Below, one piece after another: positions 46,186 to 51,754 of a stretch of 64,000 nucleotides of DNA. Positions within the stretch are counted from its first letter, which is position 1, and the number at the start of each line of letters is the position of its first letter. Where the stretch lies: assembly GCA_036567965.1 (NCBI GenBank), contig DATCTN010000027.1, forward strand, positions 1-64,000, read 5' to 3'. The position numbers and the translations under genes were made by a program. The notes under the pieces are model-generated. The model saw only the letters and a program-made list of their open reading frames with translations. It ran no database searches and was not told the origin of the DNA. The DNA comes from Candidatus Kryptoniota bacterium. Lineage in GTDB: Bacteria > Bacteroidota > Ignavibacteria > Kryptoniales > JAKASW01.

Positions 46186-47204
46186 ATCGCGCGCTCATAA
46201 TCCAGACTGCGTTTCTCGGCGACGTAATTCTCACCACGCCGCTGGTTCAGGTCTTGAAGAGAGAGCATCCTGAAATGGCTGTCGACATCGTGGTCATTCC
46301 TTCTACGCGTGAGGTGGTCGAGAATCACCCGGCCGTCTCGAAGGTGATAACCTATGATAAGCACGGCGCTCAGAAATCTCCCTGGTCTTTCATCTCGCTC
46401 GGAAGAGAATTACGGAAAATGAAATACGACGTGATAATCTGTCCGCATCGATCTTTGAGGAGCGCCCTCCTTTCCCGTATGACGAACGCGCCCGTCAGGA
46501 TCGGGTTCAGGAACTCGGCTCTCCCGGGGTCATTTACCAGCACACTAGCATGGAAATTCGGCGTACATGAAGTGGATCGAAATCTATCACTACTCGAACC
46601 TCTGGGAATAGCGACACATCGTGAGGTGCCGAGATTGTTTCCGACTCAAGGTAACCGCGAGGAGGTAGATCTGTTCATCGGCGAAAACAGGATAGAGAAG
46701 CCGTTTGCCGCGATTGCGCCTGGGACTGTCTGGAGAACGAAGCAGTATCCGGTCGCGAAAATGGTCGAGGTCGCGAAGCAACTCCTGGAGAGATTTGCAC
46801 GGATCGTGATTGTTGGCGGGCCCGCCGATGCGGAGACCGCGGCATCTTTCGACGGGATTGATTCGAGGATCGTTTCCGCCGTCGGGAAATTGTCCGTAAT
46901 GAGTTCTGCCGAATTGATAAGCAGGGCATCCCTTCTGGTATCGAACGATTCCGCCCCGGTACACATTGCCGCGTCGTTCGAAGTGCCGACAGTCGCGATC
47001 TTCGGCCCGACGGCCGGCAATTTCGGATTTTATCCTTACGGTGACAATTCGGCCGTCGTGGAAACTACCGGTTTAGGTTGCAGGCCCTGCACGATCCATG
47101 GAGGAGCAAGATGTCCGATCGGGACATTTGATTGCATGGAAATGATTACGCCGTACTACGTTGCCGCCACCGCATTGAGAATCTCCGGGACGCGCAATGG
47201 TTAA
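46182..47204 (+). CDS. waaF: ADP-heptose:LPS heptosyltransferase (GT9 family)
   Basis: A GT-B glycosyltransferase of family 9, 340 residues. It shows the N-terminal ALIIQTAFLGDVILTTPLVQVLKREHP, with the conserved GD after the first strand, then the phosphate-binding APGTVWRTKQYP and the C-terminal VSNDSAPVHIAA motif. It would transfer heptose to the growing LPS inner core in the cytosol. The ATG at 46182 overlaps the acyltransferase stop as ATGA. The upstream reading from 46107 is within the acyltransferase gene and is rejected. The gene symbol follows best resemblance, and a WaaC or WaaQ-like role is possible. Confidence 0.85.
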   Translation: MNRALIIQTAFLGDVILTTPLVQVLKREHPEMAVDIVVIPSTREVVENHPAVSKVITYDKHGAQKSPWSFISLGRELRKMKYDVIICPHRSLRSALLSRMTNAPVRIGFRNSALPGSFTSTLAWKFGVHEVDRNLSLLEPLGIATHREVPRLFPTQGNREEVDLFIGENRIEKPFAAIAPGTVWRTKQYPVAKMVEVAKQLLERFARIVIVGGPADAETAASFDGIDSRIVSAVGKLSVMSSAELISRASLLVSNDSAPVHIAASFEVPTVAIFGPTAGNFGFYPYGDNSAVVETTGLGCRPCTIHGGARCPIGTFDCMEMITPYYVAATALRISGTRNG

Positions 47205-47814
47205 GAAAGTTATCGCGTCCCGGAAGCGGAGTCTCGTGGTCGCAGCCCAGACGATTCTCAACGGCGGCGTGATTGTTTATCCGACGGAGACTATCTACGG
47301 GTTGGGTGCAAACGCGCTGGACCCGAAAGTTGTGGAGAGAGTTTTCGAGATAAAAGAGAGGCGAAAATCAAATCCGATCCTGATTTTGATTCCGGATATT
47401 CAGTCGTTGGAGGAACTTGCCCTCGAGGTACCGGACTCCGCTCAGGATCTGATGAAAAAATTCTGGCCGGGACCGTTGACAATAGTTTTCAGGAGTACCC
47501 CGATGGTCTCGAAGATATTGACGGCCGGGTCGGGAAAGATCGGCATTCGTTTGTCGAGTGACAAGTTCTGCAGAGATCTCCTGAGCATCTGCAAGATCCC
47601 GATCACATCCACAAGTGCAAATCTATCGGGTGAGTCCAATCCGAACTCGATCGAGATGATCAACAAAAGAGTGTTGGACTCTGTAGATACTATCGTCGAT
47701 GCGGGAACCTTGACTTCACAAACACCATCGACAGTTGTGGACGTGACGAAAGGGAAGGTGGAACTGGTGAGAGAAGGGGCGATCGCGTTCAAGGAGATTC
47801 TTAAAGAACGATAG
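47197..47814 (+). CDS. tsaC: L-threonylcarbamoyladenylate synthase (TsaC/Sua5 family)
   Basis: The enzyme makes threonylcarbamoyl-AMP, the first step of the t6A modification at position 37 of ANN-reading tRNAs. The YrdC fold is clear: VIVYPTETIYGLGANALDPKVVERVFEIKERRKSNPILILI, then KFWPGPLTIVF, IGIRLSSDKFCRDLL and ITSTSANLSGESNP. The 205-residue length shows the single-domain TsaC form without the Sua5 C-terminal domain. The ATG at 47197 overlaps the waaF end by eight bases. It is the last gene of the long plus-strand cluster that begins with the RodZ-like gene. Confidence 0.93.
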   Translation: MVKKVIASRKRSLVVAAQTILNGGVIVYPTETIYGLGANALDPKVVERVFEIKERRKSNPILILIPDIQSLEELALEVPDSAQDLMKKFWPGPLTIVFRSTPMVSKILTAGSGKIGIRLSSDKFCRDLLSICKIPITSTSANLSGESNPNSIEMINKRVLDSVDTIVDAGTLTSQTPSTVVDVTKGKVELVREGAIAFKEILKER

Positions 47815-49132: not shown

Positions 49133-49196
49133 AGCAGGAAAACGTGAGAAGAATGGATTCCCGCTAAAAGCATGTCCCGACCGAAATATTCTATAT

Positions 49197-49238
49197 GCCG
49201 GGATCCCGCTGACGCGGGATGAACTCCAGCGGGAATTC
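49197..49238. repeat. Partial copy of the CCCGCT-ACGCGGG repeat
   Basis: The segment contains CCGGGATCCCGCTGACGCGGGATGAACTCCAGCGGGAATTC in outline: a short hairpin (CCCGCTGACGCGGG) followed by ATGAACTCCAGCGGGAAT. The same ending is present in the 128-bp elements downstream, so this is a truncated or variant copy. Confidence 0.6.
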
Positions 49239-49300
49239 ACTCTTCAGGTGTGGAGAATTTGTTGCGTCATACCTCTCTGGAAATAGCCAAGTAGCCATTC

Positions 49301-49428
49301 TGTCATTCCCGTCCCGCTTACGCGGGATAAACTGCAGCGGGAATCTGCCGTTCAGTTACACGGCATCTATTGATCGGAGCGATGCGCTGATCCGAGCGAG
49401 ATGGATTCCCACTTGCGTGGGAATGACA
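49301..49428. repeat. 128-bp MITE-like element, copy A
   Basis: The element begins TGTCATTCCC and ends GGGAATGACA, a perfect 10-bp terminal inverted repeat. Inside are a CCCGCTTACGCGGG hairpin, CAGCGGGAATC, and the segment CATCTATTGATCGGAGCGATGCG. Copy B at 49537-49664 has the same length and differs at two positions that I could see. Confidence 0.85.
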
Positions 49429-49479
49429 TTGACAGAGTTTTTTAGATGACATCTCTCTTGGAGTAACCCGCTTCTGTTC

Positions 49480-49523
49480 TGTCATTTCCAGCCCGCTTAC
49501 GCGGGATGAACTCCAGCGGGAAT
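49480..49523. repeat. Truncated copy of the repeat
   Basis: It starts TGTCATTTCCAGCCCGCTTA and runs through the hairpin and GATGAACTCCAGCGGGAATC, then diverges. It has the left end of the 128-bp element but lacks the right half. Confidence 0.7.
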
Positions 49524-49536
49524 CCACCTTCTCCTC

Positions 49537-49664
49537 TGTCATTCCCGTCCCGCTTACGCGGGATGAACTGCAGCGGGAATCTGCCGTTCAGTTACAGGGC
49601 ATCTATTGATCGGAGCGATGCGCTGATCCGAGCGAGATGGATTCCCACTTGCGTGGGAATGACA
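49537..49664. repeat. 128-bp MITE-like element, copy B
   Basis: It is a direct repeat of 49301-49428, with the same 10-bp terminal inverted repeats. It ends 16 bp before the stop codon of the minus-strand GIY-YIG gene. The near-identity of the copies points to recent spread or gene conversion. Confidence 0.85.
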
Positions 49665-49679
49665 AAACGAGAAATACGG

Positions 49680-49985
49680 TCAATCCTCAGAGACAAGCTC
49701 ATCGTATAGGTCCTTCCATTCTGGATTCATCGACTCGATAAGTTCTATCTTCCATTTCCTATACCATTTCTTAATCTGCTTTTCTCTTCTTATCGCGACC
49801 GTTACATCATCCGTTGATTCGAAATAGACAAGCTTGTCTACACCGTACTTCTTTGTGAAGCCATTCATCATCTTATCTTTGTGTTGGCGAACTCTCCTGA
49901 TCAGATCGTTGGTCACCCCTGTGTAGAGTGTGCCATTTCGCTTGCTCGCAAGTATGTAAACATAGTAGTTCTTATCGCGTGGCAT
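49680..49985 (-). CDS. GIY-YIG nuclease superfamily protein (UPF0213/YhbQ-like)
   Basis: The 101-residue product is a single GIY-YIG domain. The two signature triplets occur as YVYIL and LYTGVT, 12 residues apart, followed by the conserved Arg in DLIRRVRQHK. A Glu in RREKQIKKWYRKWKIELI supplies the metal ligand. The mark of UPF0213 proteins, KYGVDKLVYFE, is also present. The family contains structure-specific nucleases, and the small single-domain forms are often found near short palindromic repeats. Here the gene is embedded in a field of MITE-like repeats. A role in moving them is inferred from position only. Confidence 0.88.
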   Translation of the reverse strand: MPRDKNYYVYILASKRNGTLYTGVTNDLIRRVRQHKDKMMNGFTKKYGVDKLVYFESTDDVTVAIRREKQIKKWYRKWKIELIESMNPEWKDLYDELVSED

Positions 49986-50080
49986 ACAATATCAGAGTTG
50001 ACTTCGGAAGATCAGGGATGTAACTCCAGGGAAAGCGGAGATCCAGCCTTTGACATTACCCGCCAGACGCCAGCATGACC

Positions 50081-50187
50081 CTCTTCCCTGGATTCCCGAT
50101 TAGATCGGGAATGACATTTCCGGGCTCCCCGTAATCCACGCCCCGCTGGCGTGGAATAAACTCCAGCGGGAATTCCCCGCGGACTTC
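50081..50187. repeat. Variant repeat copies next to the methylase-like gene
   Basis: The stretch contains TGGATTCCCGATTAGATCGGGAATGACA in outline, which matches the right end of the 128-bp element, and a variant left part CCCCGCTGGCGTGGAATAAACTCCAGCGGGAATTC. The latter reaches the stop codon of the next gene, so it may also terminate its transcription. Confidence 0.65.
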
Positions 50188-51243
50188 TTACACTTCCGAC
50201 TGCTTCTGGAATGTCAGGAGCTCGGTCATTTCCGGTATCAGCGGCTTTCGCTCGTAGTAGTTGTATCTTCTTGCGGATCTCTCGGGTAGAAAGACCCTCC
50301 CCACAGTCTTGTAGTTCGCGTCAGCGTACATCCGTTCCACTTCGTACGGAAAATCGGCCACGCCTGCCTCTCCGATCCTCGAGCCGACCATGACGGAAAC
50401 CCTCCCACCGATTTTCAAAATGCGGTGGCTCTCCCTGAAAACAGTTTTAAATTTCATCTTGAAGTTTGATAACGCTACCGTCAGGTCCTCGGGGTTCGAG
50501 TAAAATTCTGCAGGCAAGTTGAGAAAAACATAATCGGCTGAATTCGATTCTCGCGGAATGCCGGTCAGGAAAACATTGTTTTGTTTTATCCGTTCATCCG
50601 ACGAAATCGTTTCATATAATGAATATTTTCGGTCATTGAAGCAGGAGAGATTGTCTACCACGTCGCCGAGAGTACCGTCTGTGGCGAAGGGATCGACAAT
50701 ATTAGCGCCTGGATCAGTATAATAGTAAAGCGCGTTCGCGACTACCTGCCCCGCCACTCGCCCCTTTTGCCCCGGTTTGCCGAACCGCGGATCGGGAACG
50801 TCGAACGTCCACACGTTCGTGTTCCTTAAATCGAATCCGAATTTTGTCCGCTCAGATTCACGTTCCGTCAGAACATCTTCGCGGATTCTTTTCCGCAGCT
50901 CTCCTATCGTCCACTTGTTTTGATATGCCGCCTTTTCGTACTCCTTGCGCTTATCATCTGTGCTGACTTTAGTCGCGAGCTCGAAGTAAAAGCTCTCGGG
51001 GAGTTTCCGCTTTTTCAGATCAGGATAGTAAGTGAAGTACATCTGGCATTGCTTGAGGAGACCCGGTTGAAATTTGAATCCGGGAGTAGTGGTCAGAAGT
51101 TTGTACAATTCTTCTTCCGAAAGCTTATTCGACTTAGCATACGGAAGAATTTTTTCGACGATGAACTTTCCCACGTCCCAGAAACTGTCGACTGAGAGGG
51201 AATTCAGTCTCTCTGCCAGTTTTTGAAGCGGATCGGTTTTCAT
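50188..51243 (-). CDS. DNA-methyltransferase-like protein with lost catalytic motif
   Basis: The 351-residue protein has an N-terminal helical region (about 1-125). Its YPDLKKRKLPESFYFELATKVSTDDKRKEYEKAAYQNKWTIGELRKRI block resembles the N-terminal domain of DUF1016 (YhcG) proteins. From about 140 on it resembles beta-group DNA methyltransferases: NVWTFDVPDPRFGK..GRVAGQVVANALYYYTDPG, then motif I as DPFATDGT (184-191). Motif IV, normally DPPY-like, is LNLPAEFY at 241-248, so the catalytic proline-proline-aromatic pair is missing. Either the enzyme is inactive and now binds DNA or cofactor, or the family uses a different motif. No restriction gene is adjacent. The C-terminus (RRYNYYERKPLIPEM) is basic. 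Start ATG at 51243. Confidence 0.6.
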   Translation of the reverse strand: MKTDPLQKLAERLNSLSVDSFWDVGKFIVEKILPYAKSNKLSEEELYKLLTTTPGFKFQPGLLKQCQMYFTYYPDLKKRKLPESFYFELATKVSTDDKRKEYEKAAYQNKWTIGELRKRIREDVLTERESERTKFGFDLRNTNVWTFDVPDPRFGKPGQKGRVAGQVVANALYYYTDPGANIVDPFATDGTLGDVVDNLSCFNDRKYSLYETISSDERIKQNNVFLTGIPRESNSADYVFLNLPAEFYSNPEDLTVALSNFKMKFKTVFRESHRILKIGGRVSVMVGSRIGEAGVADFPYEVERMYADANYKTVGRVFLPERSARRYNYYERKPLIPEMTELLTFQKQSEV

Positions 51244-51270: not shown

Positions 51271-51355
51271 GTAATCAGCAATCAGCTTTCAGTAATCAGC
51301 AATCAGTACTCGGTAATCAGCTGTCAGCTGAAAGCTGATGCCTGAATGCTGATAG
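51271..51355. repeat. AATCAGC-rich intergenic repeat
   Basis: GTAATCAGCAATCAG occurs at 51271-51285 and again at 51292-51306. It is followed by GGTAATCAGCTGTCAGCTGA and GCTGATGCC..GCTGATAGC, which can fold. It fills the 112-bp gap between the methylase-like gene and the B12-binding gene. Confidence 0.7.
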
Positions 51356-51754
51356 CTACTTTCCCTTTTCCCAATTGCGGACATAATCGATAATGTCGGA
51401 AGTCAGCGTGCCGGGTGTAAACAGCTCGCCGACGCCGAGATCTTTCAGGGCTTTGACATCTTTATCGGGAATAATCCCGCCGCCGAAAAGAAGAACGTCT
51501 GTCAGTCCCTTCTCTTTCATGAGCGCAATGACTTTTGGAAATATCGTCATGTGCGCGCCGCTCAGGAGGCTGATTCCGATTACGTCGACATCCTCCTGTA
51601 TGGCAGCGTCTACAATCATCTCGGGCGTTTGCCTGAGCCCGGTATAGATGACCTCCATGCCGCCGTCCCTAAGCGCCGCGGCGACTACTTTTGCTCCACG
51701 GTCGTGCCCATCGAGGCCTGCCTTCGCTACCAAAACGCGGATTTTTCTTTCCAT
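51356..51754 (-). CDS. Cobalamin-binding domain protein (methylmalonyl-CoA mutase small-domain type)
   Basis: The 132-residue protein is a free-standing B12-binding Rossmann domain. The DxHxxG motif (DGHDRG at 15-20) places His17 as the lower cobalt ligand. The other markers are [24 protein letters not shown] and ELFTPGT. In archaea and some bacteria methylmalonyl-CoA mutase is split, and such a domain is the small subunit (McmA2). The large subunit is not in the window, so it should be elsewhere on the chromosome. Membership in another B12-dependent mutase, such as 2-hydroxyisobutyryl-CoA mutase, cannot be excluded. It follows the flippase-like gene on the same strand. Confidence 0.9.

Follow-up and report, generated by a model that had tools for sequence, protein, structure and literature searches.

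The DUF1016_N domain is best known from YhcG-type predicted nucleases. A published description of YhcG assigns nuclease function to the C-terminus and gives the N-terminus as helical, with no assignment (PMC1189080); among methyltransferases the METTL14-type pseudo-enzymes keep the fold with a degenerate DPPW-type motif (PMC5023411). Here we analyse a gene encoding a DUF1016_N-methyltransferase-like protein (351 residues, ATG start; 50188..51243, minus strand) in a 64,000-nucleotide stretch of a Candidatus Kryptoniota genome (assembly GCA_036567965.1, contig DATCTN010000027.1, positions 1 to 64,000), hereafter called the window. An earlier interpretation made from the letters of this DNA (the sequence-only reading) had taken the gene for an orphan methylase derivative with a broken catalytic motif. 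We find that its catalytic and cofactor residues have been lost under purifying selection, and we favour, with some confidence, the view that it encodes a conserved pseudoenzyme, a former methyltransferase that is non-catalytic and probably binds DNA, RNA or a protein partner.

Domain composition and motifs

The gene is supported by its open reading frame, by Pfam and PADLOC matches and by its orthologues. Residues 7-123 (50875..51225; this and the following features of the gene lie on the minus strand) form an all-helical DUF1016_N domain, the better conserved half of the protein. The window protein matched the Pfam DUF1016_N profile at 5.2e-7 (30.3 bits, 2.5 bits short of the 32.8 cut-off) and the PADLOC model PDC-S02 over residues 7-124 at 3.1e-10, and profile search found DUF1016_N in all 14 orthologues scanned with Pfam (best 8.7e-9), in agreement with the DUF1016/YhcG-type N-terminus first proposed. 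Residues 136-330 (50254..50838) form a methyltransferase-like domain with the motif order X-I-II-III-IV, and it aligns to DSPY-type methylases in which the order is the same. The match of the window protein itself to N6_N4_Mtase (PF01555) was weak (17.7 bits, under the gathering cut-off of 26.7), and the same profile matched 14/14 orthologues (best 2.8e-12); this similarity to the family profile places the protein in the PF01555 fold family, and its descent from a methylase is supported. The C-terminal half matched no nuclease model in Pfam or PADLOC, its matches being methyltransferases, and sequence searches of the PDB yielded no relative (best values 0.97 with the single sequence and 0.044 with a profile).

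Motif I of the window protein reads DPFATDGT (residues 184-191, 50671..50694), the motif II acid is E211 (50611..50613) and motif IV reads LNLPAEFY (residues 241-248, 50500..50523). The open reading frame, and an alignment that sets LNLPAEFY against the DPPx loop of the relatives, confirmed the gene and both motifs as originally noted. In the window protein the NLPA of motif IV fails the [DNS]PP[YFW] pattern of active DNA amino-methyltransferases, and DPFATDGT fails their FxGxG S-adenosylmethionine (SAM) loop. The sequence strongly suggests that methyl-transfer activity has been lost in the window protein, which probably no longer binds SAM in the way that its relatives do. The sequence-only reading had proposed a DNA- or SAM-binding regulator derived from a methylase; the methylase descent stood, but SAM binding is less likely than was then held, because the motif I glycine has been replaced by threonine.

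Distribution

A search of 60 relatives identified a single orthologue in 12 of the 13 genomes of the window's genus, at 72-79% identity to the window protein. In the thirteenth genome (G008) the contig breaks off inside the upstream B12 gene, and its absence was therefore not counted as a loss. When 391 genomes of the class were searched with a profile, three further families (f13, f20 and f24) yielded full-length orthologues, and the sample of orthologues outside the genus numbered 26. Presence is patchy, for no full-length orthologue was recovered from the seven genomes sampled of f2, a family of the order to which that of the window also belongs. Viral contigs searched held no relative, and the plasmids searched held the DUF1016_N half only, in two Nostoc records, one of them annotated as a PDDEXK protein. 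The gene is vertically inherited, single-copy and chromosomal.

Motif loss within the genus

Outside the genus, motif I was DP[FML]AG[ST]GT and the motif II acid was D in all 26 orthologues, and motif IV was DPPx[DE][FY] in 25 of them. The exception, L087 (7223-8335, minus strand), has DAPSEFF together with an intact motif I, possibly a separate first step of a similar kind. Within the genus DPP was kept in only two of the 12 members and replaced by [D/N/A]LP in the other ten, most of which also lack motif I or II residues. L005 and L009 combine DPPEEIY with AGSGT, and L002 and L004 combine DLP with AGSGT; DLP also occurs with AESGT (L006) and with AGDGT (L007). NLP is accompanied by AGDGT in L003 and L012 and by ATDGT in the window, and ALP by AAGGT in L008 and L010 and by AVGGT in L011. 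At the position of the motif II acid, L007 and L012 carry A and the window carries E. At position 243 the codons changed from CCN to CTN or TTG. The conservation of LNLPAEFY among homologues, which had been put forward as a check, did not hold: the window protein stands at one end of a series.

P243L was present in every sequence that had lost D242, G188, S189 or D211. In a gene tree built without the motif columns, a single clade for the three NLP sequences was rejected (approximately unbiased (AU) test, p 0.0004), indicating that D242N arose at least twice; D242A was limited to a supported clade (L008/L010/L011), and in all at least three lineages have lost D242. Monophyly of all ten P243L sequences was not rejected (p 0.457), and P243L may therefore represent one event, perhaps the first, or two. 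The base of the genus was left unresolved by both the gene tree and an RpoB tree. The sequences suggest an order in which P243L came first and D242, G188, S189 and D211 were then free to vary. The fourth residue of motif IV was S, K, A, T, H or E in the intact relatives and never Y, F or W. Since even the intact members lack an aromatic residue there, the family may descend from something other than a typical base methylase.

Selection and evolutionary rate

Over the 12 genus members the maximum likelihood estimate of omega (the ratio of nonsynonymous to synonymous rates) was 0.044, indicating strong purifying selection. Counting estimates for unsaturated pairs were 0.039 for L008/L010 (synonymous divergence (dS) 0.46) and 0.051 for L008/L011 (dS 0.79), with 0.039 for L005/L009 (dS 1.03), and within the methyltransferase half unsaturated pairs gave 0.04-0.06. 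Catalytic residues have thus been lost while purifying selection continues, one of the marks of a pseudoenzyme.

Outside the genus 118 columns showed conservation of 95% or more, and 77 of these were unchanged in all genus members. Three or more residue types were found in the genus at S114, G188, S189, D211, E231, D242, E287 and S337, which amounts to 4/11 of the motif I, motif II acid and DPP columns versus 4/107 elsewhere (Fisher test, p 0.0025, a guide only because these columns were chosen with the alignment already in view). As controls, the catalytic and cofactor columns of f20 and f13 were scored in the same way, and none reached three residue types (0/10 in each family). The methyltransferase half evolves at 1.78 times the rate of the N-domain in the genus, versus 1.26-1.48 times in the other families.

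Proposed origin and structure prediction

The protein joins a helical DUF1016_N domain to a Rossmann domain of the amino-methyltransferase type. Relatives in the three other families retain the SAM loop, rich in glycine, and DPP, both of which were lost stepwise in the genus under strong purifying selection on the rest of the protein. In the course of events that we propose, the protein would now act without catalysis, and DUF1016_N and the former substrate surface of the methyltransferase domain may together bind DNA, RNA or another protein. A DNA-binding role may be inferred from the kind of domain present, together with a structural match that is weak. A more specific version, on which we are close to evenly divided, is that of a DNA-binding pseudo-methyltransferase with a housekeeping role, derived from a DUF1016_N-methylase fusion, in a genus whose members range from intact, through those with no change but P243L, to losses completed several times independently.

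AlphaFold was run on the window protein and on an orthologue with intact motifs (L042), with 11 sequences each and with more divergent orthologues left out. The N-domain of the window protein was modelled as helices with a predicted local distance difference test (pLDDT) score of mostly 83-92. The best Foldseek rows were DNA methylases, the first three being TTHA0409 (2ZIG; E 4e-3). In VIA-align comparisons of the N-domain, Noc (6y93, Z 8.6), Spo0J (4umk, 8.0) and ParB DNA-binding domains ranked first, although this likeness (root-mean-square deviation 4.7-4.8, 10-12% identity) is within chance for helical models.

Several points weigh against the pseudoenzyme reading. The chance-level likeness to Noc and ParB is one, and the choice of Fisher-test columns after the alignment was seen is another. 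The methyltransferase half was modelled at a pLDDT below 50 over most of the domain, in the window protein and L042 alike; the AlphaFold check suggested by the sequence-only reading therefore did not show the SAM pocket, and we make no claim about it. The genus members with named records are all metagenome-assembled genomes (Bacteroidetes or Candidatus Kryptoniota). In addition, methyl transfer can outlive unusual motifs, and neither NxP nor GDG is unreasonable in a class I methyltransferase.

Alternative explanations

This last point bears on the idea that the protein has remained a methyltransferase, one whose active site is unusual, tolerating ATDGT for SAM binding and using NLP instead of DPP to place the substrate. 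We regard this as unlikely, while giving it serious weight. Motif IV of the intact relatives is itself atypical at its fourth residue, and the substrate of the family may therefore differ from a flipped base; most of the domain, too, is conserved in the genus, with 77/118 columns unchanged. However, G188 has changed to T, E, A or V and D242 to N or A in separate lineages, with no convergence on a new motif, and Glu231 and Glu287, which are invariant outside the genus, are variable inside it. It is more improbable still that the protein is an inactive partner of the METTL14 kind, dimerising with an active methyltransferase and supplying substrate binding. A retained fold with lost catalysis would fit such a role, but no methyltransferase gene is conserved beside the gene in any family. 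Moreover, other PF01555 genes vary widely in number within the genus, and G001 has just one besides the gene studied here, so that within the PF01555 family no fixed partner was seen.

We give almost no credence to a pseudogene that is being lost and whose motif changes are decay. The loss of two motifs and the repeat island next to the gene speak for it, yet the frame is open in 12/12 genus genomes, omega is low, the genomic place is conserved, and similar losses occur in lineages with large synonymous divergence. The sequence-only reading had held that an intact DPPY at this place in homologues would point to a decay product. DPP is indeed intact in homologues, though never as DPPY, and because the degraded form of the protein is shared, graded and under strong purifying selection, the change is not mere decay. 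A conserved pseudoenzyme, in the making or already made, is the reading that we favour.

Genomic context

Gene order is kept in the genus and runs SpoIID-like, Maf-like, YbhN-like, B12-binding protein, the gene studied here and a convergent Sua5-like gene; the B12-binding protein was identified by Pfam, and the other names are ones that we presume from reading the sequences. The small B12-binding protein (51356..51754, minus strand; Pfam 1.2e-25) is encoded directly upstream on the same strand in all genus genomes that hold the methyltransferase-like gene. Its stop overlaps the downstream ATG by four bases in L033, L040 and L042, and in the window short AATCAGC tandem repeats (51271-51329) lie between the two genes. 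The Sua5/TsaC-like gene (47197..47814, plus strand; name read from sequence) is the convergent neighbour in most genus genomes, at a distance of 2-215 bp in most of the genus versus 2373 bp in the window, where the extra DNA comprises a repeat island, a GIY-YIG open reading frame and another open reading frame.

The repeat island (49184-50174) lies on the downstream side of the gene and consists of five 54-nt units and two 130-nt units (98% identity). The 54-nt unit has a palindromic core, CCCGCTTACGCGGGA, whose pattern occurs four times in the island; the rest of the genome has one further occurrence, which carries three mismatches. The island had been remarked on as bordering the gene, and so it does, but it is incidental. 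The GIY-YIG open reading frame (101 residues, 49680-49985) is flanked by the island repeats and is an insertion particular to the same genome. It was rejected as a partner, as it is one of 15 GIY-YIG matches in that genome and lies in extra DNA absent from most genus genomes. Several of these 15 matches are clustered on contig C20.

In f20 and f24 the gene mostly follows an SDR-like gene, and at nine loci of these families an acyl-CoA-dehydrogenase-like gene lies directly before it; in f13 four loci have a small pterin-dehydratase-like gene after it (all three names read from sequence). In each of the four families the genes around it are of housekeeping type, and no nuclease, recombinase or phage gene recurs beside the gene in any of them. 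No restriction-modification nuclease lies beside the gene in the window, and no partner restriction endonuclease gene was found in any family, consistent with the orphan status assigned earlier. The neighbours raised the idea of a link to B12 or acyl-CoA metabolism, which we do not propose, because they differ between families. Methylase content is very uneven within the genus, with 20 PF01555 matches in G004 versus 2-3 in G000 and G001.

Comparison with known systems

Pseudoenzymes are usually seen after the fact. This genus appears to hold several stages of catalytic loss, with outgroups close enough to polarise the changes, and for this reason the order of the changes and what the protein has gained are directly testable. 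If the reading is correct, the relatives form a rare stepwise record of an enzyme becoming a non-enzyme, the order and epistasis of the conversion can be tested protein by protein, and the case would show DUF1016_N in a stable housekeeping role with no nuclease. For a fusion of DUF1016 with a methyltransferase, our literature search found no publication with either term in its title or abstract; most subscription journals lay outside that search, and a prior description is possible.

With PF01555 methylases such as TTHA0409 the protein has in common the segment comprising X and motif I (GRxxGQxxANAxxYYTxxG...DPFA) and the domain match. The motif order of these methylases is IV-X-I, whereas in the family described here it is X-I-IV; unlike them, this family has no DPPY in any member and carries DUF1016_N in front, and the window protein has lost the catalytic motifs. 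The order is that of the DSPY-type methylases (L014-L017), with one of which, L015, a profile built from the 26 orthologues aligned at 71 bits. The N-terminal DUF1016_N is common to the YhcG family (DUF1016_N with PD-(D/E)XK; PDC-S02), but the C-terminal nuclease domain of YhcG is absent and a methyltransferase fold is found instead. In its helical arrangement the N-domain, a candidate for a helix-turn-helix fold, resembles the DNA-binding domains of ParB and Noc (Z about 8), at low identity and at chance level. Like METTL14 and similar proteins, the window protein keeps a methyltransferase fold with a degenerate motif IV; METTL14, however, belongs to the eukaryotic MT-A70 family and has an obligate active partner, whereas the relatives with intact motifs in the present case are orthologues in other bacteria.
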